Of a DNA stretch of 47,362 nucleotides, positions 1 to 47,362 are shown piece by piece. The translations under genes were made by a program, and so were the position numbers. Below the pieces are notes generated by a model that was given only the letters and a program-made list of their open reading frames with translations, did no database searches and was not told the origin of the DNA. How positions within the stretch are numbered: position 1 is the stretch's first letter; every line of letters begins with the position of its first letter. Source of the stretch: a virus. The stretch lies in IMG/VR virus record IMGVR_UViG_3300042945_001601, positions 1 through 47,362 of that record; one strand, written 5' to 3'.

Positions 1-660
<660 letters not shown>

Positions 661-3735: not shown

Positions 3736-4074
3736 TTACTTCCAAAACAACTGAACCATCAGTATCAAAAAACTCAAACCTAAACACACTCCCGTTTTAA
3801 CCGTTATAGGTTCACCAAACAATGTAATAGATAAGATTGTAAACATAATTGTTCCCAACACAAATCCTATCAACCTTGATGGCCACAACTGTCCGTTGAA
3901 GTGCTCAACCATCAAACCAACTGATGTCATAAATAAAATTGAAATCGGAATACCCATTAGTACGACCAACCATTGGTTGTTTTTCATCCAATCATACTTC
4001 CATCTTCCTTGTAGTTGTAAGAAGGTTAGTACTTGAGCAAGTAACCCCACTAACATTCCTAAAATCAATTTCAT
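3736..4074 (-). CDS. Four-helix membrane protein
   Basis: 112 residues with four hydrophobic segments (about 2-20, 33-52, 63-82 and 90-110) joined by short loops, including a basic GRWKYDWMKNN between the first two. The ATG at 4074 is chosen over a TTG six bases upstream. It ends two bases from the tRNA-Met, so both may share a transcript. An inner-membrane location is likely. Function not recognised. Confidence 0.75.
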   Translation of the reverse strand: MKLILGMLVGLLAQVLTFLQLQGRWKYDWMKNNQWLVVLMGIPISILFMTSVGLMVEHFNGQLWPSRLIGFVLGTIMFTILSITLFGEPITVKTGVCLGLSFLILMVQLFWK

Positions 4075-4109
4075 TAACAAATATAGGATGAAATTTTTAG
4101 ATAATCAAA

Positions 4110-4664
4110 TTATCTTGGTTGTCTAAAGGAAAGATTATACTCATCTAAATCAACGGAACCTCTAAGTTCATCTTGTAACTCATTTTTAAAATTTGTATAA
4201 TCGGCAAATTGTTCCTTTGTTAAATTAGTAAATAAGATTTTTAGTTCAGGATTGCTGTCTCTATCCCAACTAAATTCTGTATTAGGATAGTTTGTTCTCT
4301 TAATTGCCTCTTCAATTTTATCATTGATATCTGATAGGTAATCATAATTAATGAACTCATCATAAACTTTATAATATTCTTTTGGTAAACCTGTTGAATT
4401 AAAAAACTCATTAAATACACCTTCAAACTTTCTTGACCAATCATATGTAAACCTTGGGATTCCAGTTAATTTTTTTGTTGAGGGTCTAAAAAACTTGGTG
4501 TATTCTTCATCATATTGTCCACTGTTTTTATCAGTCTTGGCAACATCAGTATAAACCTTCAATGCTCGTCTATTATCAAAATCAACAAACTCATATTTAA
4601 CATCCTTTGGGATGTTCATTTTAGTTTTTAAAAAACTACTCAATATTTGTTCTTTCTTTGTCAT
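4110..4664 (-). CDS. Hypothetical protein, 184 residues
   Basis: Opens MTKKEQILSSFLKTKMNIPK and is rich in Asp, Tyr, Phe and Lys; predicted mostly helical and soluble. Start at the ATG at 4664, just downstream of a TATATTTG -7 box, with about 15 bases of leader; the frame stays open further upstream but through the promoter. No motif recognised. Confidence 0.75.
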   Translation of the reverse strand: MTKKEQILSSFLKTKMNIPKDVKYEFVDFDNRRALKVYTDVAKTDKNSGQYDEEYTKFFRPSTKKLTGIPRFTYDWSRKFEGVFNEFFNSTGLPKEYYKVYDEFINYDYLSDINDKIEEAIKRTNYPNTEFSWDRDSNPELKILFTNLTKEQFADYTNFKNELQDELRGSVDLDEYNLSFRQPR

Positions 4665-4689
4665 ATAATTTATAAATACAAATATAAAC

Positions 4690-4719
4690 AAAAAACCCCA
4701 TCATTTACGACAGGGTTTA
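4690..4719 (-). terminator. Intrinsic terminator of the DoxX-like gene
   Basis: Minus-strand AAACCCTGTCG ... GATGGGGTTTTTTG: a stem of four to five pairs followed by a T tract, 18 bases after the stop at 4738. Confidence 0.75.
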
Positions 4720-4737
4720 ATAATTTTTGTTTTAAGA

Positions 4738-5091
4738 TTACTTGGTATAAGTTCTCAAACAATGTGCGGTCCAAGCTAAACAACCAAGAACCACTGGAAC
4801 CAAGAAACCTGAACCACCCATAAGGGCTAAGTGAAGAGCAACTGCTCCTGACATTACTGAAGACAAGATAACTGCTCCGTAAATTGATGTTCTTGGAATA
4901 CAAAGAGCTACAACACCGGCAACTTCCATCACACCAACAAGTGCCATGTAAGGTAGTAAGTTCATTGCGGTGAAATTAGTGACTTGTTGTTCAGCACTAA
5001 CAATTTTTGTTAGTCCGCTCATTCCAAGCATAAAGGTAACGATTGCAGTTAACAACCATCCCAAATTTTTAAGTGTAAGATATTTTTTCAT
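4738..5091 (-). CDS. DoxX-like membrane protein
   Basis: 117 residues, four transmembrane segments. The order (TM1 with GMSGLTKIVSAEQQ, then NLLPYMALVGVMEVAGVVAL, then two short helices) fits the DoxX/DoxD-like family of small membrane proteins of uncertain redox role. Preceded by a host-like promoter (TTG, about 20 bases, TATAATTG) and followed by a terminator, so monocistronic. A phage copy may alter host membrane physiology (speculative). Confidence 0.65.
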   Translation of the reverse strand: MKKYLTLKNLGWLLTAIVTFMLGMSGLTKIVSAEQQVTNFTAMNLLPYMALVGVMEVAGVVALCIPRTSIYGAVILSSVMSGAVALHLALMGGSGFLVPVVLGCLAWTAHCLRTYTK

Positions 5092-5126
5092 ATTCCAATT
5101 ATAGAATATTAACTTTGGATTGTCAA

Positions 5127-5498
5127 TTATTTTTTATAAGGAATTGTTTTAGTCCATTTTAACCTATACTGACCATTAACTTTGTCAAATGGTTCAAAAC
5201 TAAATCTAAAATCACCTATGTTAGCATACACTGGATAAATTGGGAACTCATAATCTTGTTTAACATGGAACGCATTTATACCAACCTTACTTTTGTTTAA
5301 CTTTTCTAAAAAAGTTTTAGGTGTTTCTTTATTTAGTAAATTAATACCCATCTTTTTAGCGTCCTGAATAATATTATTATCAATATTAATTTCAGCATTT
5401 TTAGGAATTGCTACAGGACCATCCTTTGTTTGTTCGGTAATAACTCTTTTTATAATTCTAACCAAATCACTCTCAGTTAAGTTAATAATTTTTTTCAT
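5127..5498 (-). CDS. Putative head-packaged protein with capsid-targeting-like leader
   Basis: 123 residues. The N-terminus carries LTESDLVRIIKRVITEQ, an amphipathic basic helix ending VITE|Q. I recall this leader on many unrelated proteins in marine Bacteroidota-phage metagenomes, and it fits the T4 gp21 cleavage rule (hydrophobic-x-E). The remainder (FRFSFEPFDKVNGQYRLKW near the end) resembles a small beta domain. First of three consecutive genes with this type of leader (5127-6752), separated by 10-15 bases and probably co-transcribed. Function of the mature part unknown. Confidence 0.6.
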   Translation of the reverse strand: MKKIINLTESDLVRIIKRVITEQTKDGPVAIPKNAEINIDNNIIQDAKKMGINLLNKETPKTFLEKLNKSKVGINAFHVKQDYEFPIYPVYANIGDFRFSFEPFDKVNGQYRLKWTKTIPYKK

Positions 5499-5513
5499 AC
5501 CTTATAAATAGAT

Positions 5514-5843
5514 TTAATCAGAAAATTTAAAAGGATACTTTTTCATCAAAATATTAGGATTAATTTCAGATATATCGACACCAAGTGTGTTTTCAACCCA
5601 AATACCTATATTATCTTTTGATACAGTTTTATCAATAGTGAAAAAATCACATATCTCCCTAATCAAATCAGGTGAAATAAAACAATAATGTTTAGTGATA
5701 TCAAATACAATTTCAGAATACGTATCATTTTCTGAATTTAAAAAATATATATAACCGTCTTTTTCAATTTGAATGAAGTCCTGGTTATCCAAATATTTAA
5801 AGATGACTCTGTCTAATTGTGATTCTGTGATTATATATTTCAT
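5514..5843 (-). CDS. Putative head-packaged protein, ITES leader
   Basis: 109 residues opening MKYIITESQLDRVIFKYLDN; ITE|S fits the prohead-protease rule. The mature part is acidic and aromatic, with repeated Phe/Tyr/Asp. It lies between the two other leader-bearing genes with short spacers. I recall MKYIITESQ openings on small phage proteins from metagenomes, without a known function. Confidence 0.6.
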   Translation of the reverse strand: MKYIITESQLDRVIFKYLDNQDFIQIEKDGYIYFLNSENDTYSEIVFDITKHYCFISPDLIREICDFFTIDKTVSKDNIGIWVENTLGVDISEINPNILMKKYPFKFSD

Positions 5844-5852
5844 TTATAATAC

Positions 5853-6752
5853 TTACTCAGGTTCGTCACTCTTGGGGCTCTTATAACCAATTTTTTCAAA
5901 TGGTTCTCTATTTTCTTTTTTAGCACTATAAAATAACTCATACATCATATTGAGTAACCTTGTCTCCCCAATAAGTTTTAATAACTTACTACTAACAATA
6001 ATACTTCTGTTTAAAACAAGTTTTCTTGTGTTTTTCTTGGTTAAGTATCTTTCATAGATACTATCAGTTACAATTTCAATTACTTTACTTTTTGGTAATC
6101 CATCTTCAATCAATAAAACAGTATCATTATACACCACAGCGTTAACATCCGGCATTTCTAATAATCGTCTAAAAACTTCCTGAACCGCATTAGTTGCATT
6201 TTCAGCTGATTGTATAAATCCAAGTTTATGAAGAAGTGACCTGTAAATTTTAACACCGAGATTATACCCAAGTAATGATTTAGGTAGTCCTACCGGGAAG
6301 TGAGTTCTATTTCTTGGCTGGTCAGTGTACATGTAAATCCATATTGTTTCTATAAACTCCCTGTAATCAGCAGCCATTTGAGCAATCTTACTAAGAGGAT
6401 TTAATCCGTTTGTATAACCATTCTTATTTAATTCTTCATACAACTCAGTCATCTCTTTCATTTTATTAGTTATGTTTTTTGGTAACATAACATAAAAAAA
6501 CTTATTTGGTTCATAAAAATTGATGTCTTCCCATTTAAGATTTCGGAGTTCACTATCAATTTCGGAGTAAAGGTTATTACATTTTTTAACCATCTTCTTT
6601 AACTCACTTCTTGATTCTTCACTCTTTTCTTTATCTATAAGAGATTTGACAAGATAGTTCTTTGGCTGGGAAGCTCGTAGCTTACCCATACTGAGACCCA
6701 TCTCTTTAACTTCTGTTTCTTCTCTTATGATTTTTTTGATTAAATCCCTCAT
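5853..6752 (-). CDS. Putative head-packaged protein, 299 residues
   Basis: Opens MRDLIKKIIREETEVKEMG; IRE|E at 9-11 fits a capsid-targeting peptide. The rest is alpha-helical, with a charged coiled-coil-like stretch at 35-110 (LKKMVKKCNNLYSEIDSE) and a Lys/Glu-rich C-terminus. No enzyme motif is recognised. First gene of the 6752-5127 unit; upstream lies a divergent 92-base region shared with the plus-strand gene at 6845. Confidence 0.6.
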   Translation of the reverse strand: MRDLIKKIIREETEVKEMGLSMGKLRASQPKNYLVKSLIDKEKSEESRSELKKMVKKCNNLYSEIDSELRNLKWEDINFYEPNKFFYVMLPKNITNKMKEMTELYEELNKNGYTNGLNPLSKIAQMAADYREFIETIWIYMYTDQPRNRTHFPVGLPKSLLGYNLGVKIYRSLLHKLGFIQSAENATNAVQEVFRRLLEMPDVNAVVYNDTVLLIEDGLPKSKVIEIVTDSIYERYLTKKNTRKLVLNRSIIVSSKLLKLIGETRLLNMMYELFYSAKKENREPFEKIGYKSPKSDEPE

Positions 6753-15923: not shown

Positions 15924-16130
15924 TTACAACGTTTTTTGGTAATCCTCAATTAAGTCATTTGAATGCCAAGTGCTAACTAGCAAGTCGTCACCATCTTCGA
16001 TAAGGGAGTACTTATTCTTATTGTCTTTTGCAAACTGAATAAAGTCAGGTCCAACAAATCGTTTTTTATCTTTTCTAAGATCAGATAATTCTGAATATCT
16101 TTTAGCGATCTCTTTTATAGGATGGTTCAT
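15924..16130 (-). CDS. Small charged phage protein
   Basis: 68 residues opening MNHPIKEIAKRYSELSDLRK; mixed charge, ends LVSTWHSNDLIEDYQ. The first gene upstream of tRNA array 1 on this strand; driven by a TATATTAG -7 box at 16150-16157. Ends four bases before element D, so read-through into the array is likely. Function unknown. Confidence 0.8.
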   Translation of the reverse strand: MNHPIKEIAKRYSELSDLRKDKKRFVGPDFIQFAKDNKNKYSLIEDGDDLLVSTWHSNDLIEDYQKTL

Positions 16131-16149
16131 GTTCTTATTATTTACTTAG

Positions 16150-16157
16150 CTAATATA
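16150..16157 (-). promoter_or_regulatory. -7 box TATATTAG, no -33
   Basis: First member (from the left) of the promoter family that precedes most genes from 16 to 41 kb; there is no TTTG about 20 bases upstream. Confidence 0.6.
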
Positions 16158-16187
16158 GATCTTCTCCCCGGGATAACCCAGAAGGTC

Positions 16188-16391
16188 TTAAATTTTACTC
16201 AGCTTCTTTCTTAGGGTTTTCAATTTAGCATTTAATCTGTTACGCTCCAGCTTTCTTAGATAAGGACCGTGGTTGTATGGGGTGTATCCCTTTGGACCAG
16301 CCCAGGCACTAGTCCAGACTGTTCTGTCTGTCTTTAGAAACTCTATGCGTTCCTCGATAGTCCTGATCTGTTCTTCTAGTTCCTCTCTCAT
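16188..16391 (-). CDS. Small coiled-coil protein
   Basis: 67 residues: an N-terminal coiled coil (REELEEQIRTIEERIEFLK), a Trp/Pro/Tyr-rich turn (AWAGPKGYTPYNHGPYL) and a basic C-terminal helix (RLNAKLKTLRKKLSKI). Own TATATTAG promoter at 16412-16419 with a GATGCTAATATA leader side. The turn with two Trp could be a binding loop; function unknown. Confidence 0.8.
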   Translation of the reverse strand: MREELEEQIRTIEERIEFLKTDRTVWTSAWAGPKGYTPYNHGPYLRKLERNRLNAKLKTLRKKLSKI

Positions 16392-16456
16392 AGTGCGTTT
16401 TGGTTATGATGCTAATATAAGCAGGATTCCCGTAAATTCCCAGAGGGAAAGAACCC

Positions 16457-16494
16457 GGGCCCAACTAGCCGGATATCCGGAAGGGCCCTTTTGA
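16457..16494 (-). repeat. GGGCCC inverted repeat with inner palindrome
   Basis: Minus strand GGGCCC-TT-CCGGATATCCGG-CTAGTT-GGGCCC, lying between the stop at 16511 and the next -7 box. Related in layout to 8980-9015. Probably a terminator-like hairpin. Confidence 0.5.
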
Positions 16495-16510
16495 AGGTTC
16501 ACCCTAGGGT

Positions 16511-16978
16511 TTAGATTACCATGTCCCTGACCTTTCTGAGTGTCTTTAACTCCTTGGTCGTCTCCTCTAAGTCTGCTCCAAGACCACTGATTATACCTCG
16601 TAGGATCTCTAGATCCCGACTTCTTTTGCTTGTCTGGTTGTAGGCATCAACAAGAGATAGAGTTAGATCCTTGAGCTCCTTTAGACCCGCTACCACTTTC
16701 CTAGAAGCGATCTCTCCTAGAGCTCCGCTGTAGCGTATCTTTATCCCTTGCTGGTACTCATAGAAGTCGTTTCTTTTCTTATTCGTCTTCTCCGTAGCAA
16801 GTCCGAGCCAGCTCGAGACATATGAGATGTGATTGGTTGTTGTTCTAGTGAACTTCCCAGCGGGTGTGATTACTCCCTTCTTGAAGTCGATCTCGGCAAC
16901 AACTGTGTCGTAGCTGATGATCCTGTTCTTGCTCAGATCGATAAGTAGGTTTGGCCTTGGGTTGAGTAGTATGTCCAT
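16511..16978 (-). CDS. Hypothetical helical protein
   Basis: 155 residues opening MDILLNPRPNLLIDLSKNRI. N-terminal beta part with YDTVVAEIDFKKGVITPAGK, then a long helical C-terminal half (LKELKDLTLSLVDAYNQTSK ... LEETTKELKTLRKVRDMV). The frame stays open far upstream, but the TATATTAG box at 16983-16990 lies five bases before this ATG, making a near-leaderless start the natural choice. Function unknown. Confidence 0.75.
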   Translation of the reverse strand: MDILLNPRPNLLIDLSKNRIISYDTVVAEIDFKKGVITPAGKFTRTTTNHISYVSSWLGLATEKTNKKRNDFYEYQQGIKIRYSGALGEIASRKVVAGLKELKDLTLSLVDAYNQTSKRSRDLEILRGIISGLGADLEETTKELKTLRKVRDMVI

Positions 16979-17366: not shown

Positions 17367-17717
17367 TTAATAATTAGGAGGAGTGAAGAAGAGAATGCGT
17401 ACTCCGCCCTCTCTGAACTCAGGCTCTGGGATGATGACCCCGTCTAGCTTAGCCTTGTCCTCCTTAGGGATGTTGTACCACTTAGCAACATAGTCTACAC
17501 CCTGAGCGAATCCGATGGGTTCGTCTCTGGACATGCTACCTCTAGTGTAGCCAAGATCCTTCAGGTATTCCTCTGCCTTGCCGATGGCGTCAAAAGTTCC
17601 ACTTGCTGGGAAGCTCACCTCGTGGAGAACCGGTCTGCCTAGATATTTGTCATGCTTTCTTTCAAACTTGGAATCCGACTCGTTTACGAAGCTTTCGAAT
17701 GTGGTGATGTTTTTCAT
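17367..17717 (-). CDS. Putative head-packaged protein with FVNES leader
   Basis: 116 residues opening MKNITTFESFVNESDSKFER, which resembles T4 internal-protein leaders (MKTYQEFIAE) and would be cut after FVNE. The mature part has an alpha/beta look (PASGTFDAIGKAEEYLKDLG, then DGVIIPEPEFREGGVRILFF). Downstream of 17740-18180, whose leader is similar, with a 22-base gap. Confidence 0.65.
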   Translation of the reverse strand: MKNITTFESFVNESDSKFERKHDKYLGRPVLHEVSFPASGTFDAIGKAEEYLKDLGYTRGSMSRDEPIGFAQGVDYVAKWYNIPKEDKAKLDGVIIPEPEFREGGVRILFFTPPNY

Positions 17718-17739: not shown

Positions 17740-18180
17740 TTATTTATCCTCGATTAGGAGTTCTCCAAGAACCTCTATCTTACCAACTAGCTCTTGAAAA
17801 GCCACCTGAGAGATGTCCATAGAGTTTCTAGTTGCTTCGTAAAGGTCTGTTAACAGGTCATCGTATTCTTTCCTAACCTTTTTCATATCCAATTTTCCAT
17901 CCACCCTTTTTTGGTAGTATGGAAGCTTAACGTGGAAATGGTGATATGTTAGTAAAGCATCTCCTCCCTTCTCTTTCGCTGCCTTGGATATCTTTGCTGC
18001 TCCTGCTAATCTATTTTCTGCAAACTCCTGGTGTGTCTCTTTCTTCCCTCTTGCTTCGGAAACCTCTTTCACACAGTTAGGAACGGTCCTACCTTTTTTA
18101 TTCTTAGTTCCAATCTGCTTGTAACCATCCCAGCAGGGATCTTTTTTCTCGAGTATAAATTTGTCGTAGTCTAGTATCAT
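17740..18180 (-). CDS. Putative head-packaged protein with DPCW/PNCV motif
   Basis: 146 residues opening MILDYDKFILEKKDPCWDGY; FILE|K fits the prohead-protease rule. The next segment KDPCWDGYKQIGTKNKKG ... VPNCV is a motif I recall from many virion-associated proteins of marine T4-like phages, usually right after a capsid-targeting leader. The rest is helical and Lys-rich. Together this is the best support in the window for the leader interpretation. Promoter box TACATTAG at 18194-18201; the gene above ends in a terminator. Confidence 0.7.
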   Translation of the reverse strand: MILDYDKFILEKKDPCWDGYKQIGTKNKKGRTVPNCVKEVSEARGKKETHQEFAENRLAGAAKISKAAKEKGGDALLTYHHFHVKLPYYQKRVDGKLDMKKVRKEYDDLLTDLYEATRNSMDISQVAFQELVGKIEVLGELLIEDK

Positions 18181-18220
18181 ACTCTATATATCGCTAATGT
18201 AGAGCATAACCCCGCAGCAA

Positions 18221-20393: not shown

Positions 20394-20624
20394 TTAAGAG
20401 AGTTGATCCATTAGAGAATTATAGACAAACTCTGAGTCATTGTTAATGATGTCCAATTCTTCCTCAGTGGCTGGTCTACCATCTATGTCACAGCTGATTA
20501 TGAATGCGTCTGAGTAGTCTGGTGCGTCACTGTGGTCTACACCATCGAACTCGATGCTGTCAATTTTGGTGAAGTCAATCTCCGGCTCTTGTCCGAATTC
20601 CTCGTATAATTTGATATGGTTCAT
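20394..20624 (-). CDS. Small acidic protein with KLYEEF leader
   Basis: 76 residues opening MNHIKLYEEFGQEPEIDFTK, close to the leaders of the LRR proteins (M[KR]HIKLYDQLFES) and T4 internal proteins. The rest is strongly acidic (DGVDHSDAPDYSD). A small head-packaged protein is possible. Promoter box TATCTTAG at 20649-20656 preceded by ATATATCG. Confidence 0.7.
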   Translation of the reverse strand: MNHIKLYEEFGQEPEIDFTKIDSIEFDGVDHSDAPDYSDAFIISCDIDGRPATEEELDIINNDSEFVYNSLMDQLS

Positions 20625-20673
20625 ACCGTTTTTTATTTTTATATATCGCTAAGATAAGAGAGAACCCCGGGAG

Positions 20674-38887: not shown

Positions 38888-38965
38888 GATCTTATAGTGT
38901 TAATTGGTTATGATGCAAATATAGGCCTAGGCCTCGGGAGAACCCCGAAAGCCTAAGATTTTTTT

Positions 38966-39247
38966 TCAGTTCATGTGGACTGGGTTGTTCACATACCTTA
39001 GGGCCTGTAGGGTACGGCCGATGCTGGCGTTCTCCAGCTGGGAGATCTGGTCCTTGATCTTCTGCTCTACGAACTTATGGATGTGATTGATGAACTCCTC
39101 TAGCTCTCCGTGGACTGCTGTTGCCATATAGATACGTAGGGTCATGCCGATGGAGATTAAGCCCATGTCCTCGGTCTCGGTGCCTTTCTCGATTAGTCTC
39201 TCACCTAGTCTGGTGATTTCTAAAATTGCCTTTTCATGTGGTGTCAT
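38966..39247 (-). CDS. Small helical phage protein, 93 residues
   Basis: From MTPHEKAILEITRLGERLIE; helical, with EDMGLISIGMTLRIYMATAV and a FINHIHKFVEQKIKDQISQL tail. Cassette promoter at 39270-39277. Function unknown. Confidence 0.78.
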   Translation of the reverse strand: MTPHEKAILEITRLGERLIEKGTETEDMGLISIGMTLRIYMATAVHGELEEFINHIHKFVEQKIKDQISQLENASIGRTLQALRYVNNPVHMN

Positions 39248-39304
39248 ACTATGCTGATTGGTTATGATGCAAATATACAACCAATCAACGGGAGAATCCC
39301 GAAG

Positions 39305-40108
39305 CTAGACCTGGATTTGTGGTACCCAGTGAGTTGTCCGCTTATCCTCTGTTTCTTCACGGAGAACTGGATACCCGAGCGGGCACGTGCTTCTCATATA
39401 GACATGGAAGTAGAATGGGAAACTGCCCTCACCTCCGTCCATGTCTGAGTAGGTGGAGAATGTGGCTCCGCCCTGCTCTAGGCTCTTCGCCATGATCCAC
39501 CGGGTCACATCATAGAGTCTCTCTAGCTCCTCCTGATTCAGCTCCGAGCAGATCCGATGGGGGGAGATTCTGGCTCGATAGAGTGCCTCAGCTTTGATGT
39601 AGTTACCGACTCCCCCTAGGATCTTCTGATCCATCAGAGCCCTGCAGATGGGAATTCTTCTATGGGAGATAGCCTTCTGAAAATCCAATATGGTGGTATC
39701 CGGATGTAGCATATCAGGTCCGATACCTTTTAACCTGCTCTGTAACTCGGATTCGTGCTGCATAAAGATGAGTGTTCCGAATCTTCGGATGTCATCAAAC
39801 CAGACGGTACGTCCGCCCTGGGTGGTGAACTGGAAGTGGGCATGCTTGGTTCTGACATCCCGCCAGCCGCCACTCATACCTAAAGTGTTCCAGATGCTCC
39901 AGCCGCCTTCCAGTAGAATCTGGATGGCCTTGCCTTTCACATTCACGGCAACAACTCTCTGTGGCAGTGATCCTATGAATCCGTCAATGCCCTTGGGAGG
40001 AGTTCTGAGCCACTTCCCTCCAAGAACCTGAGCTTCTGTTATAACTTCTCCCAGTAGTCTCTCTTGGAGACTGAGAGCCATTCTTTTAACTTCTGGACCT
40101 TCCGGCAT
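39305..40108 (-). CDS. Formamidopyrimidine-DNA glycosylase / Nei family with degenerate zinc finger
   Basis: 267 residues from the ATG at 40108, chosen because it gives the mature N-terminus (M)PEGPEV with catalytic Pro and Glu. Lys60 in VNVKGKAI and the helix-two-turn-helix MDQKILGGVGNYIKAEALYR at 160-179 are present. The C-terminal finger has lost its cysteines (one CPLG left; TTHWVPQIQ replaces the second CxxC), but Arg257 in DKRTTHW remains: a zincless finger as known in plant FPG and NEIL1. Removes oxidised bases and nicks the strand. Fourth gene of the unit 40854-39305. Confidence 0.9.
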   Translation of the reverse strand: MPEGPEVKRMALSLQERLLGEVITEAQVLGGKWLRTPPKGIDGFIGSLPQRVVAVNVKGKAIQILLEGGWSIWNTLGMSGGWRDVRTKHAHFQFTTQGGRTVWFDDIRRFGTLIFMQHESELQSRLKGIGPDMLHPDTTILDFQKAISHRRIPICRALMDQKILGGVGNYIKAEALYRARISPHRICSELNQEELERLYDVTRWIMAKSLEQGGATFSTYSDMDGGEGSFPFYFHVYMRSTCPLGYPVLREETEDKRTTHWVPQIQV

Positions 40109-41449: not shown

Positions 41450-42421
41450 GGGGTTGATTTTTATTTTTTTATTAACTGTTCGCTTGTTTAAAACTATATA
41501 TGGCTGGGTTACTGAGAAACCGCGGACATCCACAAACAATCTAAAAAAAATTTCACGTGACAGAAAAAACTCGGCCCACAGTAAAAAAATTTCGCCACCG
41601 AAATATTTAATCCAAGAGTTTCCTTTCCTAGTAGACAAGAGAGAAGAACTCAGACTACTAGAGAGACATAGAGAGAGGCGAGAGAGCACACGGGGCGAGC
41701 CTAGACACATAGAGAGACCGAGTAATCGGGGCGAGACTGGGGCGGATCTGGGCATGGCCTCTGGGGAATCCCAGAAATCCCCACAAATTTCCACAAATCT
41801 CCACTGCTTACCAGGATTTCTGACTCGGCCGAGAAGACTGAGTGACCTGGAGATTGAGGCTGGGGCTTCGCGGAAACTCAGATAGCCCTGAGACCATGGA
41901 CCCTGGGTGGTAGGCTCGGCCCTGGAGCGGGCTTACTAGGAGGGCCAAGTTCGCATGACCTCACCTGGCCAAGCTGTATATGACACCTCTGTTAAGTTCG
42001 CATGACCTCACCTGGTCTAGTACTTATGACATCACCTGGCCAAGCTGTATAAGCTATCTTCTGCTAGGTCCTTCTAATGGGTCTTGTCTGAGTCCTATAA
42101 GATGTCCCTGGCTGGGGTGTCTAGTCTACTCTCTAGTCTCTCTCTATGCTAGGTCTTGTCTATGCTGTCTCTCTAGAGTAATAGGTCTATGTCTATGCTT
42201 GTGTCTATTGAGATGGGTGTGAGTGTTTGGTTGTTTAGAGTAAGAGTGGGTGTATTGAGTATGCTCTCTATGTCTAGTCTCTCTTTGTCTCTCTCTAGTT
42301 CTCTCTCTATGTCTACTAGTCTCTTGTCTATATGGAAAGGAAAGAGTCATAACTATTTGGTGGGCCGGGGGTCTAGCGATTTTCCCTGAAACATCCCCCA
42401 TCGGTTTTGATATATAGAGAC
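41450..42421. other. Gene-free divergent region, possible origin or control region
   Basis: Separates the minus-strand block from the plus-strand LRR operon. It starts with an AT-rich part (41450-41620), then purine-rich GA tracts on the plus strand (GAGAGACATAGAGAGAGG at about 41661), three related repeats (41947-42050), and pyrimidine-rich TCTCTAG tracts (42120-42330) on the plus strand. Open frames on both strands here are low-complexity artefacts. Strand asymmetry plus a transcription switch are typical of replication origins or late-gene control regions; no protein-binding motif is identified. Confidence 0.55.
41947..42050 (+). repeat. Three imperfect direct repeats
   Basis: AAGTTCGCATGACCTCACCTG occurs at 41947 and 41993 (one unit 46 bases apart), and TATGACATCACCTGGCCAAG at 42024 repeats the 3' half; GGCCAAGCTGTATA follows the first and third units. 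Possible iterons or binding sites. Confidence 0.55.
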
Positions 42422-43168
42422 ATGAGGCATGTCAGGAGTTATAAAGAACTATTCGAGAGTCAAACAGAGCTCTCTCAGGAACAGGTCAAGTGGCTGAATA
42501 AGTTCACATCCCGCGGAATTTGGGAGCTTAATCCACAAACTGGACTGGTTGATGTGGATGGCGATTTCGATTGTACTAATAAGGGTCTGCCAAATTTTAG
42601 GGGTATCAGATTTGGCGAAGTGAGTGGGGATTTCCATTGTGGTTATAATCAGCTCACCACACTAGAGGGAGCACCTCGGAGTGTTGGCGGTGATTTCTTT
42701 TGTTATTCTAATCGACTCACCTCACTAGAGGGAGTACCTCAGAAGGTTGGCGGGCGTTTCGATTGTGACGACAATCATCTCACGAGTCTTGAGGGAGCAC
42801 CTCAGACCGTTAAAGGGAGTTTCAGTTGTGACGACAATCAGCTCACCTCACTGGTGGGAGCACCTCAGACCGTTGGTGGGCATTTCTTTTGTAATGACAA
42901 TGGGCTCACCTCACTAGAGGGAGCACCTCAGACCGTTAAAGGGAGTTTCAATTGTGAGGGTAATCCAGCCTCTGAATCAACTTTGTATTCCATCTTTGCG
43001 CTAATGGAAAAAGGAATGGATTATCAACAGGCTTTAGAACAATACTGGCCTAAGATGGGCGATGAAGATAAGGCTTTAATGTATAAACAAATGCCGAATT
43101 TACCCCTGGAAGATGCGAGAAAGTACAAGGCTCTAGCCACATACGCTAAAATAAAGGGGTATTTATAA
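42422..43168 (+). CDS. LRR paralogue 1 with capsid-targeting-like leader
   Basis: 248 residues, ATG at 42422. Leader MRHVRSYKELFESQTELSQE (LFE|S fits the prohead-protease rule), a constant segment (GIWELNPQTGLVDVDG), one variant and five standard 21-residue repeats of the type FxCxxNxLTSLEGAPxxVGG (about 60-175), and a helical C-terminal cap ending YKALATYAKIKGYL. One Cys per repeat would line up as a ladder in the beta strand. Opens a seven-gene plus-strand operon with overlapping starts; no cassette promoter was found, TATATA lies 10 bases upstream. Confidence 0.85.
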   Translation: MRHVRSYKELFESQTELSQEQVKWLNKFTSRGIWELNPQTGLVDVDGDFDCTNKGLPNFRGIRFGEVSGDFHCGYNQLTTLEGAPRSVGGDFFCYSNRLTSLEGVPQKVGGRFDCDDNHLTSLEGAPQTVKGSFSCDDNQLTSLVGAPQTVGGHFFCNDNGLTSLEGAPQTVKGSFNCEGNPASESTLYSIFALMEKGMDYQQALEQYWPKMGDEDKALMYKQMPNLPLEDARKYKALATYAKIKGYL

Positions 43169-43779
43169 TGAAACACATTAAGCTGTATGATCAGTTATTC
43201 GAGAGTCAAACAGAGCTAACACCCGAGCAGATCGAGTGGCTGGATGAATGCGCTATTGGAAAGTGGACCCTTAATCCCCAAACTGGCCTTGTTGATGTGA
43301 AAGAGGGTTTCAATTGCTATGATCAGGGTCTGACTGATTTTAAAGGTGTGAGATTTGGAGTGGCTGGGCACTTCTATTGCTCCTACAACAAGCTCACCTC
43401 TTTGGATGGAGCACCACAGAGTGTTGGTAGTGATTTCTATTGTATTAACAACCAGCTCACTTCCCTAAAGGGAGCACCCCAGCAAGTGGAGGGGAATTTC
43501 GATTGCTCCAAAAACCAGCTCACTTCCCTGGAGGGAGCACCTTCTTGGATTGGAAAGAGTTTCTATTGCTCAGGCAATCCCGTCTCTGAAGAGGCGCTAG
43601 AAGATATCCATGATATAATGCGATCTGGTATGAGCTGGCCGGATGCTGTTGCGGAGGAGTGGGATTCCATTGAATCCGATGAAGATAAGGTCCTGCTGGC
43701 TCCTTATAACCGCACTCTGTCTCCTGATGATCTAAAGAGTTACCAGGCACTAGGGAGACTAAGAAAAAGAGTACTATGA
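43168..43779 (+). CDS. LRR paralogue 2
   Basis: 203 residues, leader MKHIKLYDQLFESQTELTPE. Three standard repeats and a cap ending LSPDDLKSYQALGRLRKRVL (type B). Overlaps the previous stop by one base (TAATG). Shortest of the family. Confidence 0.85.
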   Translation: MKHIKLYDQLFESQTELTPEQIEWLDECAIGKWTLNPQTGLVDVKEGFNCYDQGLTDFKGVRFGVAGHFYCSYNKLTSLDGAPQSVGSDFYCINNQLTSLKGAPQQVEGNFDCSKNQLTSLEGAPSWIGKSFYCSGNPVSEEALEDIHDIMRSGMSWPDAVAEEWDSIESDEDKVLLAPYNRTLSPDDLKSYQALGRLRKRVL

Positions 43780-44528
43780 GACACATTAAGCCATACAGTC
43801 AACTATTCGAGAGCCAAACAGAGCTAACACCCGAGCAGATCGAGTGGCTGAATCAATGCACATCCGGCAGATGGAAGATTAACACTTCTACAGGGCTTGT
43901 TGATGTGGATGGGAATTTCGATTGTAGCTCGCAGGATTTAGAAGATTTTAAAGGTGTTAAGTTCGGGAAAGTTGAGTTGTATTTCTATTGTGATAGCAAT
44001 CAGCTCACCACACTAGAGGGAGCACCACAGAGTGTTGGCGCTAGTTTCTTTTGTTATGGTAATCGACTCACCACACTAGAGGGAGCACCTCAGAGCGTTG
44101 GTGGTTTCTTTTGTAATGGAAATCAGCTCACCACACTAAAGGGAGCACCTCAGACCACTAGAGGGTATTTCAATTGTTATGATAATCGGCTCACCACTCT
44201 CGAAGGAGCACCTCAGAGCGTTGGCGGGGTTTTCGCTTGCGATAAGAATCAAATCACTTCACTCGAAGGAGCACCACAGGAGAGCAGATGGGGCTCCTCT
44301 TTGGATTTCTCTTGTAGTGACAATCCGGTCTCTGAAAAGACTTTAAAAGCCATTTTTGAGCTAATGCTAAAAGGAATGAGATATCAGCAGGCCCTAGAAG
44401 AATACTGGCCTAATATGGGAGAAGAAGATAGGTCAGTAATGTATAAACAAATGCCGGATTTACCCCCGGAAGATGCGAGAAAGTACAAGGCTCTAGCCAC
44501 ATACGCTAAAATAAAGGGGTATTTATGA
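43776..44528 (+). CDS. LRR paralogue 3
   Basis: 250 residues, leader MRHIKPYSQLFESQTELTPE. Five repeats, one shortened by a residue and the last followed by an insertion (APQESRWGSSLD). The C-terminal cap is the type A form and its final 57 bases of DNA are identical to those of paralogue 1, indicating recent duplication or gene conversion. ATGA overlap with paralogue 2. Confidence 0.85.
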   Translation: MRHIKPYSQLFESQTELTPEQIEWLNQCTSGRWKINTSTGLVDVDGNFDCSSQDLEDFKGVKFGKVELYFYCDSNQLTTLEGAPQSVGASFFCYGNRLTTLEGAPQSVGGFFCNGNQLTTLKGAPQTTRGYFNCYDNRLTTLEGAPQSVGGVFACDKNQITSLEGAPQESRWGSSLDFSCSDNPVSEKTLKAIFELMLKGMRYQQALEEYWPNMGEEDRSVMYKQMPDLPPEDARKYKALATYAKIKGYL

Positions 44529-45205
44529 TGAGACACATTAAGGCATTCGATCAACTATTCGAGAGCCAAACAGAGCTAACACCCGGGCAGATCGAGTGGC
44601 TGGATGACTCATCCCGCGGAATTTGGGAGCTAAATCCACAGACTGGACTGGTTGATGTCAGGGGATTTTTTGAATGCTCAGGACAGAGGCTGACAGATTT
44701 CAAGGGTGTAAGATTTGGAAATGTCTGGAAGGGTTTCTATTGCGAGAATAACTCTCTCACTTCCTTAGCGGGAGCACCCCAGAAAGTGGGCGGTAATTTC
44801 TATTGTTCCTCTAACTCTCTTACCACACTCGAAGGGGCACCTCAGACAGTGGATGGTAATTTCTACTGTGACCGTAACCGTCTCTCTTCACTAGAGGGAA
44901 GCCCAGAGATAGTCGGTGGAGATTTCTCCTGCTGCGATAACTACATCACTTCCTTAGATGGGGCACCACAATCAGTGGGCAGGTTTTTCTACTGTGAGGG
45001 CAACCCGATATCTGAAGAGTCTATGAAAGTCGTGCTTCAGAAGATGAGCAAGGAAGAGCTCACTCTAGAAGAAGCTGTGAGCAAGTGCTGGCCTGATATT
45101 CCAGAAGAGGATAGAGCCTATCTGGCTGGACATAAACCTGATCTCTCGCCAGAAGAGAGAAGAGGGTACGAGGCACTAGCGAGATTAAAGAAAAGAGTTA
45201 TATGA
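44528..45205 (+). CDS. LRR paralogue 4
   Basis: 225 residues from the second ATG at 44528 (MRHIKAFDQLFESQTELTPG), which matches the family start; an ATG three bases earlier is also possible. Four standard repeats and a type B cap (LSPEERRGYEALARLKKRVI). TGATG overlap with paralogue 3. Confidence 0.85.
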   Translation: MRHIKAFDQLFESQTELTPGQIEWLDDSSRGIWELNPQTGLVDVRGFFECSGQRLTDFKGVRFGNVWKGFYCENNSLTSLAGAPQKVGGNFYCSSNSLTTLEGAPQTVDGNFYCDRNRLSSLEGSPEIVGGDFSCCDNYITSLDGAPQSVGRFFYCEGNPISEESMKVVLQKMSKEELTLEEAVSKCWPDIPEEDRAYLAGHKPDLSPEERRGYEALARLKKRVI

Positions 45206-45741
45206 AACACATCCGACTTTGGGAAACATGGCAGTGGATTCAGAAAGGAGGTGAGGACCAAGATTCTGAACGCAACTATAAATCCACTCTAAAAGAACTG
45301 CTTGACTGGGCCTATGGACCAGACTGGATAAACGACTGGGCTGCTCTTGAGGCTCTGCCTTTATCCGTCAACGGCGACCAAATAGAAGATGATGGGGAAT
45401 TCCTGGGTTACCACGAGACCCTTAAAAGAGCAGCGGGCACTAAGATCGGCATCTGGGCAGAATACGAGGAAGACTGGGGCATCTCAGTGATCTGGTACCT
45501 AGGGGGAGACGAGTACGAGATCATCACTCAGGACTGGCCTTTTGAATCTGATGATGTCACAGACGAGGAAGCGGCTCTAGTTCGCAAAATCTCCGCTTTG
45601 CCAGCAGCTCAAGAATTGGATGGACCCACTATTATAGACTTTGTGCAGTGGGCCATTAGAGAACAGGGCATGCAACCACAGCAGGTCTCAGGTGACTTAT
45701 TAGGTCAGTGGCTCGGTCAGCGTAGGATTGGTCTCAACTAA
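45202..45741 (+). CDS. Non-LRR gene within the LRR operon
   Basis: 179 residues opening MKHIRLWETWQWIQKGGEDQ, sharing only the first five residues with the paralogues. Acidic, Trp-rich, alpha/beta (GIWAEYEEDWGISVIWYLGG ... FVQWAIREQGMQPQQVSGDL). Overlaps paralogue 4 by ATGA. It lacks the ESQTEL segment, so packaging is uncertain. Function not recognised. Confidence 0.75.
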   Translation: MKHIRLWETWQWIQKGGEDQDSERNYKSTLKELLDWAYGPDWINDWAALEALPLSVNGDQIEDDGEFLGYHETLKRAAGTKIGIWAEYEEDWGISVIWYLGGDEYEIITQDWPFESDDVTDEEAALVRKISALPAAQELDGPTIIDFVQWAIREQGMQPQQVSGDLLGQWLGQRRIGLN

Positions 45742-45758
45742 TCCCGATATATAAGAGC

Positions 45759-46499
45759 ATGAAGCACGTCAAGGGATACCAAGAGCTATTTGAATCACAA
45801 ACCGAATTAACACCCGAGCAGATCAAATGGTTAGATATGTGGACCGACGGAAGTTGGTCCATTAATCCTGAAACAGGTCTGGTTGACATAGAGGGCAATT
45901 TCAGGGTTCATAGAAAGGATCTAACTGATTTTAAAGGAGTGAGATTTGGAAAGGTTGATGGAAATTTCGATTGCTCTTATAATAATATCACCTCTCTGGA
46001 CGGTTCACCACAGGAGGTAGGGAACAATTTCTACTGCTATGACAATCAGCTCACCACACTAGAGGGAGGGCCTTCTATTGTTAAGTGGGATTACAATTGC
46101 TCGCGTAATAATCTCGTCTCCCTAAAGGGTGCGCCCAGGAGGGTTGGTGGTTATTTCGACTGTGGTAGAAACTTTCTTACCTCTCTAGAGGGATCTCCTG
46201 ATTCCGTTGGTGGGTATCTCGCTTTCCCTCGCAACCAGATCGTTTCTTTAGAGGGCTTGCCCAAATATATTGGAAGAACTTTAGAATTACACGATAACCC
46301 GGTTTCTTCTCCGACCTTTCAATGGATCTATATTGGCATGAAGACCGGACATAGCTTTACTGAATCACTGGTCAGATACTGGGAGAAGATAAAGGACCCG
46401 GAAGACCTAGCCGTATTGGCTCCCTATAACCCCACGTTATCTCCGGAGGAAGTAAAGGGATACGAAGCACTAGGTAGATTTAAAAAGAGAATACTATGA
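45759..46499 (+). CDS. LRR paralogue 5
   Basis: 246 residues, leader MKHVKGYQELFESQTELTPE. Repeats are more diverged: the first unit has lost Cys (NFRVHRKDL) and the last ones replace Cys with Ala/Leu. Type B cap (LSPEEVKGYEALGRFKKRIL). It is preceded by a 17-base gap with GATATATAAGAGC. Confidence 0.85.
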   Translation: MKHVKGYQELFESQTELTPEQIKWLDMWTDGSWSINPETGLVDIEGNFRVHRKDLTDFKGVRFGKVDGNFDCSYNNITSLDGSPQEVGNNFYCYDNQLTTLEGGPSIVKWDYNCSRNNLVSLKGAPRRVGGYFDCGRNFLTSLEGSPDSVGGYLAFPRNQIVSLEGLPKYIGRTLELHDNPVSSPTFQWIYIGMKTGHSFTESLVRYWEKIKDPEDLAVLAPYNPTLSPEEVKGYEALGRFKKRIL

Positions 46500-47362
46500 G
46501 ACACGTCAAGAAATATCAAGAGCTTTTTGAAGCCCAAACTCGATTAACACAGGAGCAGATCGAGTGGCTGGATTCCTGCACTAAAGATACATGGACACTC
46601 GATTCCCAAACAGGACTTGTTAATGTGAATGGTACTTTTTATTGTAGTGAACAGGACCTGACAGATTTGAGGGGAGTTAAATTTGGAGTGGTGAGAGGAG
46701 ATTTCTGGTGCAACGGAAATCAGCTTACCTCACTGGAGGGGGCACCACAGGAGGTTTTGAGAGGATTCTTTTGCTATGACAATCAGCTCACGTCTCTAGA
46801 CGGGGCACCACAGCGGATTGGAAAGGCTTTCGATTGTTCGGATAATCAGATTACCTCACTGGTGAATGCGCCAAAGGAGGTTGGAGATCATTTCACTTGC
46901 TCCGATAACTACATCACGTCACTAGAGGGAGTGCCACAGAAGATTTGGTTGGATTTCTATTGTGGGAACAACCAGCTCACCTCACTGGAGGGAGCTCCCC
47001 AACAGGTTGGAGGAAGTTTCTGGTGTGAAAGAAATCAGCTGACCACACTAGAGGGAGCTCCACAGCGGGTTGGTGGGAATTTCAAGTGTTCTGATAATCA
47101 GCTCATCACATTAGAGGGAGCACCCCAGACTGTTGATGGTAGATTTAATTGTTCACGTAACCAGCTCACCTCACTAGAGGGAACACTCCGGAAAGTTGGG
47201 ACAGATTTCAATTGTGCGGACAATCAGCTCATCTCACTAGAGGGGGTACCGAAAAAGATTGGCGGTGATCTTTATTGTGAGGGAAATCAAGTTTCTGTAC
47301 TCGTGCTTAAATCTCTCTATAGGAAGATGAAATCAGGGATGTCCTGGGAAGAAGCTGTTGAG
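46496..47362 (+). CDS. LRR paralogue 6, truncated by the window edge
   Basis: At least 289 residues without a stop. ATG at 46496 overlaps the stop of paralogue 5 (ATGA). Leader MRHVKKYQELFEAQTRLTQE, then the constant segment and nine standard repeats (DFWCNGNQLTSLEGAPQEV onward), the longest array of the family. The last visible residues (MSWEEAVE-like) are the start of the C-terminal cap. Confidence 0.85.
   Translation, partial: MRHVKKYQELFEAQTRLTQEQIEWLDSCTKDTWTLDSQTGLVNVNGTFYCSEQDLTDLRGVKFGVVRGDFWCNGNQLTSLEGAPQEVLRGFFCYDNQLTSLDGAPQRIGKAFDCSDNQITSLVNAPKEVGDHFTCSDNYITSLEGVPQKIWLDFYCGNNQLTSLEGAPQQVGGSFWCERNQLTTLEGAPQRVGGNFKCSDNQLITLEGAPQTVDGRFNCSRNQLTSLEGTLRKVGTDFNCADNQLISLEGVPKKIGGDLYCEGNQVSVLVLKSLYRKMKSGMSWEEAVE

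Follow-up and report, generated by a model that had tools for sequence, protein, structure and literature searches.

Leucine-rich repeat proteins with candidate capsid-targeting leaders in a giant aquatic phage

Introduction

IPI, one of the internal proteins (IPs) of phage T4, acts on restriction enzymes early in infection, and two others, IpII and IpIII, share the N-terminus MKTYQEFIAE↓A (the arrow marks the cleavage site). Passages of PMC9026906 describe how the T4 protease gp21 cuts after L/I-x-E, with leader residues 4 and 7 acting in targeting and residues 8 and 10 controlling processing; they also report that head entry needs the first ten residues only and that fusions carrying the capsid-targeting sequence (CTS) do enter the head. 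Here, we describe six open reading frames (ORFs) for leucine-rich repeat (LRR) proteins with a comparable start in a giant aquatic phage. The window analysed is the entire IMG/VR record IMGVR_UViG_3300042945_001601 (47,362 bases), in which the LRR ORFs span positions 42422-47362, the sixth being open at the contig end. The interpretation that we favour, and regard as fairly probable, is that this array encodes late-expressed cargo of a T4-type jumbo phage: the leader would mimic a unit of the internal scaffold, and the protein body would be freed by the head protease, injected, and bind host proteins.

Results and discussion

Leaders of the LRR proteins

The LRR proteins follow one plan: a 12-residue leader ending in LFE↓S or LFE↓A, a constant N-cap (approximately residues 16-65), 21-residue repeats and a helical C-cap. 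The leaders of genes 1 to 6 are, in order, MRHVRSYKELFESQT, MKHIKLYDQLFESQT, MRHIKPYSQLFESQT, MRHIKAFDQLFESQT, MKHVKGYQELFESQT and MRHVKKYQELFEAQT. They place targeting aromatics before an [LI]xE↓ motif at the N-terminus, as a shortened variant of the T4 leader. A sequence-only reading of this DNA had proposed that they are virion-targeting leaders of T4 type ending in LFE↓S, a claim that now has strong indirect support from N-terminal over-representation, an S77 protease, a gp23-type capsid protein, a scaffold motif and site conservation. The consensus it gave describes the shared leader once position 5 is allowed to be R, as in gene 1, and position 7 to be F, as in gene 4.

Among the 46 members of the LRR family, the putative cleavage site is kept in 41. 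Glutamate occupies P1 and phenylalanine P2 in 40 of these 41 proteins each, P3 is aliphatic or F, and P1' is S, A or N in 38; the spacing upstream of the site varies, as does the linker downstream. A second contig, IMGVR 3300032319_000936 (180,758 bp; G001), carries orthologues of the array at 64-87% identity. Between the two, the ratio of nonsynonymous to synonymous substitution (dN/dS) for leader codons is 0.04-0.10 in three of six pairs and 0 in another (few changes), while one pair gives 0.66 and one is saturated synonymously; the low values stand beside high synonymous divergence. The view that the LRR leader acts like a capsid-targeting leader is supported wherever sequence can test it.

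Because the six genes are paralogues, common starts alone prove nothing, and the constant start might be an inherited N-terminal part of the LRR fold whose likeness to T4 is accidental. This explanation is barely credible: the same start is found on unrelated proteins, as the genome-wide census below documents, and LRR homologues without a leader exist. Furthermore, in the AlphaFold2 model of LRR gene 1 the predicted local distance difference test (pLDDT) is low over the leader (48 in the first 10-residue block, 77 in the second) and above 90 in the N-cap from residue 18.

The leader as a module on unrelated proteins

For the census, the class pattern [YF]xx[YF][ILV]xE was derived from T4 and the expectation was taken from protein interiors. 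N-termini of non-LRR proteins matched the pattern 12 times in G001 (180 kb; 0.41 expected), 10 times in G006 (373 kb; 0.63 expected) and 16 times in G021 (289 kb; 0.88 expected). Even with the expectation doubled, the Poisson p is approximately 1e-6 to 1e-10, with a few of the matches appearing to be due to chance. The short form (YxxLFE↓S and variants) is also present on non-LRR proteins, four in G001, six in G006 and five in G021. The leader precedes intact domains, namely adenylate kinase (PF00406, ADK) from residue 27 and the pre-ATP-grasp domain of RimK (Rimk_N) from residue 24, and the adenylate kinase leader was found again in each of the three genomes. Candidate leader proteins number 16-30 per genome, including the LRR arrays, adenylate kinase and RimK. 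On this sequence evidence, the leader is not specific to LRR proteins, whose leaders exemplify a more general packaging-type signal.

Leaders of this kind also occur in partial samples of megaphages of 735 and 642 kb. Regions 210000-259000 of LR756501.1 and 80000-129000 of LR756502.1 bear leaders on unrelated proteins (for example, MLRKYGQFINEEVG and MDILRFDQFIRES), one of the bearers having LRR-like repeats.

Head proteins and the scaffold repeat

The G001 fragment is without a head module; one is carried by G015, the baseplate proteins of the two being 98% identical. The capsid protein of G015 is of gp23 type (Pfam E value 2.6e-41; PHROG major head protein, E value 3.4e-34) and its S77 protease matches the PHROG head maturation protease (E value 1.7e-35). 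Among the relatives found via the G001 baseplate gene, 15 of 16 encode an S77 protease. Pfam S77 is absent from the G001 and G002 fragments, in the case of G001 because the head module is missing from the fragment. LRR genes co-occur with S77 in G003, G009, G021, G023 and G024; these genomes and G015 each combine a gp21-type S77 protease with a gp23-type capsid protein, the latter being present in LRR-bearing genomes that have a head module. The N-terminal region of the capsid protein contains a conserved HSLNE↓SAG, plausibly a propeptide cleavage site.

The protease ORF of G015 (50885-52915; 676 amino acids, aa) runs on into 13 tandem units of 14 residues (for example, YSKYLAENLDKSIA), of which G006 has 12. 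Protease and scaffold are thus fused, with the scaffold in C-terminal position and built from Y..Y[LIV].E units such as ISYSEYLAENLDKN (YSEYLAE↓N). AlphaFold2 modelled the fusion with low confidence (pLDDT 44), yet with a near-continuous helix across the repeats; such a predicted helix would fit a rod-like core. The repeats fit the T4-derived class pattern of the leaders, from which we infer that each leader is an imitation of a single scaffold unit. When the proteomes were scanned with a strict letter-level profile of the repeat, three leaders were found in G006 (0.06 expected) and there was no enrichment in G001, so letter-level identity of leader and scaffold was dropped and the likeness is claimed by residue class only (hydrophobic at i, i+3 and i+4, then E).

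These observations suggest a route by which the LRR proteins could reach the host. The 12-residue leader would imitate one unit of the repeat-built internal scaffold (approximately 13 tandem 14-residue units), and by this likeness each protein would be built into the core of the prohead. Cleavage by the S77 prohead protease on the C-terminal side of glutamate (LFE↓S, FINE↓S, YLAE↓N) would then free the LRR body within the head. Leader-based packaging is well supported by this indirect evidence. More speculatively, the freed body would enter the host with the DNA and its LRR surface would bind host proteins early in infection; defence proteins are plausible partners, a guess by analogy with T4 IPI.

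The leader could also dock proteins to the scaffold or to another assembly with neither cleavage nor packaging, as in the recruitment of helpers. Known enzymes bear it, and its amphipathic i, i+3, i+4 pattern would suffice for docking. Docking alone leaves unexplained why P1 glutamate and a small P1' residue are retained in nearly all LRR paralogues, and T4 CTS fusions get into the head (passages of PMC9026906); this explanation is therefore doubtful at best.

A promoter-like element shared with leader genes

The octamer GATATATA lies 8-60 nucleotides (nt) ahead of an ORF start in 6 of its 7 copies in the window, and in 31 of 34, 62 of 75 and 50 of 58 copies in G001, G006 and G021, respectively, as against approximately 8% for permuted octamers. 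It also precedes the protease, gp25-like (baseplate) and further head-region genes, and it is enriched ahead of leader genes (Mantel-Haenszel odds ratio 4.6, p 2e-9). The element looks like a counterpart of the T4 late promoter, and the array may accordingly be expressed late. Three sigma-factor-like ORFs, recognised by eye in G001 (15996-16607, 53297-54187 and 72096-72656), are candidates for proteins that recognise it. In the few cases of leaderless LRR genes (L103 7998; L104 2260 and 8982), the upstream element is AATTTTCTACATT instead of GATATATA.

Fold, family and selection

Strict repeat cores (FxCxxNxLTSL, approximately 21-residue spacing) number three to nine per protein, as the sequence-only reading had stated (Table 1). 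It was also right that there are two C-cap types and that gene 6 runs off the contig before its cap; its alternation of types does not hold, the order being A, B, A, B, B, where type A ends in ...KIKGYL and type B in ...KKR[VI][LI]. Of the six genes scanned, gene 6 alone scored above the Pfam cut-off for LRR_4. Structure prediction, a check proposed in that reading, gave a confident solenoid for gene 1 (AlphaFold2 on a 13-row alignment; mean pLDDT 92.8, body almost all above 90). Its PDB neighbours are LRR proteins, bacterial ones first; the matches are weak (best E value 0.013, template modelling (TM) score approximately 0.4) and, on this model, show likeness of fold, not of function. The LRR_4 match, the predicted solenoid and the PDB matches place the array proteins among the LRR proteins, their fold being a predicted one.

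The LRR family comprises 46 members, distributed over 15 sequences that include the window and G001; tandem arrangement is frequent, with six members each in L099 and L105. Given this family and the orthologues on another contig, the array is not a chance feature. The array of G001 contains additional LRR genes as well as a tail-fibre-like gene (3981-6035) between its gene 4 and gene 5 orthologues. Through its baseplate gene, G001 is linked to contigs as large as 373 kb; more distant links lead to the megaphage records LR7565xx, Lak phages and Tenacibaculum phages. Vibrio phage VB_VaC_SRILMA, a T4-like phage, encodes an LRR protein (PP083314.1, 3330-3965) with repeats of approximately 55% identity and a start, MCTFEEWFGED, that is likewise in register with the T4 leader; this phage makes no use of GATATATA (0 of 9 copies upstream). 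Database matches to Listeria and Prevotella phages were also obtained.

For the LRR body, dN/dS in window-G001 pairs is mostly 0.1-0.6, with one 26-codon stretch at 1.05, indicating by this measure that the genes are under purifying selection. The comparison of repeat number among relatives, likewise proposed earlier, showed that two of the five orthologue pairs with complete genes differ by one repeat; genes 1 and 2 are in swapped order relative to G001. These length differences and the swapped order, the only signs of recombination, suggest it weakly, so that the earlier description of the proteins as diversified by rapid recombination is weakly supported, and the dN/dS values count against it.

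Purifying selection would suit packaged LRR proteins that act as structural or core parts of the head, or as fillers, rather than as injected effectors. The leader and promoter evidence backs packaging to the same degree in that case, and leader-like starts do occur within the G015 head module (38920-39915 and 55592-56371). Such a role is nevertheless unlikely: G006 has the same head genes, yet no LRR gene of the window's family was seen in it, and LRR copy number differs among genomes, unlike that of a structural part. LRR solenoids, moreover, are mostly binding modules.

Several observations weigh against injected cargo as we propose it. The LRR leaders are abbreviated (YxxLFE, YxVFE), lacking one or two residues relative to the scaffold unit, and themselves fail the T4-derived class pattern; the strict scaffold-repeat profile finds no leaders in G001. 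No head genes were identified in the window fragment, and the association of GATATATA with leaders is weak in G001 alone (p 0.09), a possible reason being the operon-internal position of many leader genes. Leaderless LRR proteins exist in some relatives (L103, L104), and dN/dS in window-G001 pairs gives no sign of diversifying selection, repeats included. Adenylate kinase and similar enzymes are unobvious virion cargo. In CBB, a distant relative from the RaK2/CBB group and the one compared that has a published proteome, the leader is not used (1 match, 2.6 expected), and virion mass spectrometry for this clade was not found in the literature.

It is conceivable, with a confidence a little short of even, that the jumbo phage and megaphage clade has a general packaging code in which an N-terminal mimic of the scaffold repeat sends unrelated proteins into the head and then into the host, much of the cargo being under one promoter class. 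If so, the injected proteome could be read from sequence alone. Little is known of what giant phages inject at the start of infection, since most proteins of these phages lack an assigned function and virion analyses are few. A leader tied to a scaffold repeat, a protease motif and a promoter element provides a testable cargo list for uncultured jumbo phages and megaphages (LRR arrays, adenylate kinase, RimK). It would extend T4 capsid targeting from three small proteins to large accessory cargo, and would suggest that the targeting mechanism is mimicry of a scaffold unit.

Organisation of the array and other features

The array had been read as an operon of six genes overlapping by ATGA or TGATG. 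Six LRR ORFs are present (Table 1), and ATGA joins genes 2/3, 3/4 and 5/6, as well as gene 4 and the orphan ORF that follows it; the junction of genes 1 and 2 is TAATG. The operon is not unbroken: the orphan ORF and the second GATATATA element before gene 5 indicate that the array is probably two transcription units. The orphan ORF has no relatives in Pfam or PHROG profile searches or among viral contigs. For gene 1, the ATG at 42422 was preferred as start because the TTG at 42407 given by the ORF lister would enclose the GATATATA element in the gene.

Table 1. Features of the window discussed in the text (cores, strict repeat cores; ↓, predicted cleavage site)
Feature	Position	Strand	Details
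GATATATA promoter-like element	42409..42416	+	13 nt before LRR gene 1 ATG; clade-wide element
LRR gene 1	42422..43168	+	248 aa; leader MRHVRSYKELFE↓S; 5 cores; cap type A; AlphaFold2 model
Predicted cleavable capsid-targeting leader of LRR gene 1, residues 1-12	42422..42457	+	
LRR gene 2	43168..43779	+	203 aa; leader MKHIKLYDQLFE↓S (43168-43203); 3 cores; cap type B
LRR gene 3	43776..44528	+	250 aa; leader MRHIKPYSQLFE↓S (43776-43811); 5 cores; cap type A
LRR gene 4	44528..45205	+	225 aa; alternative ATG 44525; leader MRHIKAFDQLFE↓S (44528-44563); 4 cores; cap type B
Orphan non-LRR ORF between LRR genes 4 and 5	45202..45741	+	179 aa; start MKHIRLWETWQW
Second GATATATA element	45746..45753	+	13 nt before LRR gene 5 ATG
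LRR gene 5	45759..46499	+	246 aa; leader MKHVKGYQELFE↓S (45759-45794); 5 cores; cap type B
LRR gene 6	46496..47362	+	at least 289 aa, exceeds contig; leader MRHVKKYQELFE↓A (46496-46531); 9 cores; LRR_4 E value 6.6e-8
Leader-type gene	17367..17717	-	MKNITTFESFVNE↓S
Leader-type gene	17740..18180	-	MILDYDKFILE↓K; GATATATA 12 nt upstream (18185-18192)
Possible leader-type gene	20394..20624	-	MNHIKLYEEFGQE; GATATATA 23 nt upstream (20640-20647)

Immediately 5' of the array (41600-42400), approximately 700 bp are of low complexity, CT/AG-rich (tctctct) and apparently non-coding. The minus strand carries approximately 20 tRNA genes, in clusters dispersed over 3569-32241. A DnaK-like gene that runs without a break at 1-657 (minus strand) is interrupted in G001 (118071-120367) by an insertion of approximately 0.4 kb, as judged from protein matches. 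By eye, G001 also shows a NAMPT-like gene (46229-47863), possibly an NAD+ salvage gene of a kind linked to counter-defence, and apparent intein junctions (GVVSHNS, GMVSHNT; a DNA polymerase insert) in genes of replication and nucleotide metabolism (102321-103019, 108918-109694 and 92850-94526).

Comparison with known systems

A search of the open literature for LRR proteins in phage virions, for scaffold-repeat leaders or for jumbo phages with this leader returned nothing specific, an absence that is not proof. The repeats of LRR gene 6 resemble the uncharacterised PHROG 7816 and 21719 (E values 3e-19 and 9e-16), the matches falling mainly over the repeats, with leader and C-cap outside. The bacterial LRR effectors SspH1, IpaH and YopM share a binding solenoid of approximately 20-residue repeats and are the top PDB matches (TM approximately 0.4, E value 0.013); the similarity is not significant at E 0.001, and delivery differs. 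The NEL ubiquitin ligase domain of IpaH/SspH had no Pfam match in the LRR proteins, whose C-cap is a short helical domain.

The giant phages phiKZ and SPN3US, as described in literature passages, pack many proteolytically matured and injected inner-body or ejection proteins. In phiKZ these passages place propeptide cleavage after S/A-x-E, another protease motif, and they do not report LRR cargo or a scaffold-repeat leader for either phage. The head-borne DarA/Hdf proteins of phage P1, described as acting against host restriction, may be functional analogues. With the IPI, IPII and IPIII system of T4, this clade shares a short N-terminal leader of the form aromatic-x-x-aromatic-[ILV]-x-E↓small, an S77-family prohead protease and a gp23-type capsid, and in both T4 and this clade accessory cargo genes lie outside the head module. 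T4 differs in having three IPs, as against 16-30 candidate leader proteins per genome here, and its gp22 is a separate protein with no tandem array, whereas this clade has a scaffold continuous with the protease and made up of tandem copies of the motif, of which the LRR leaders in the window are a shortened form.

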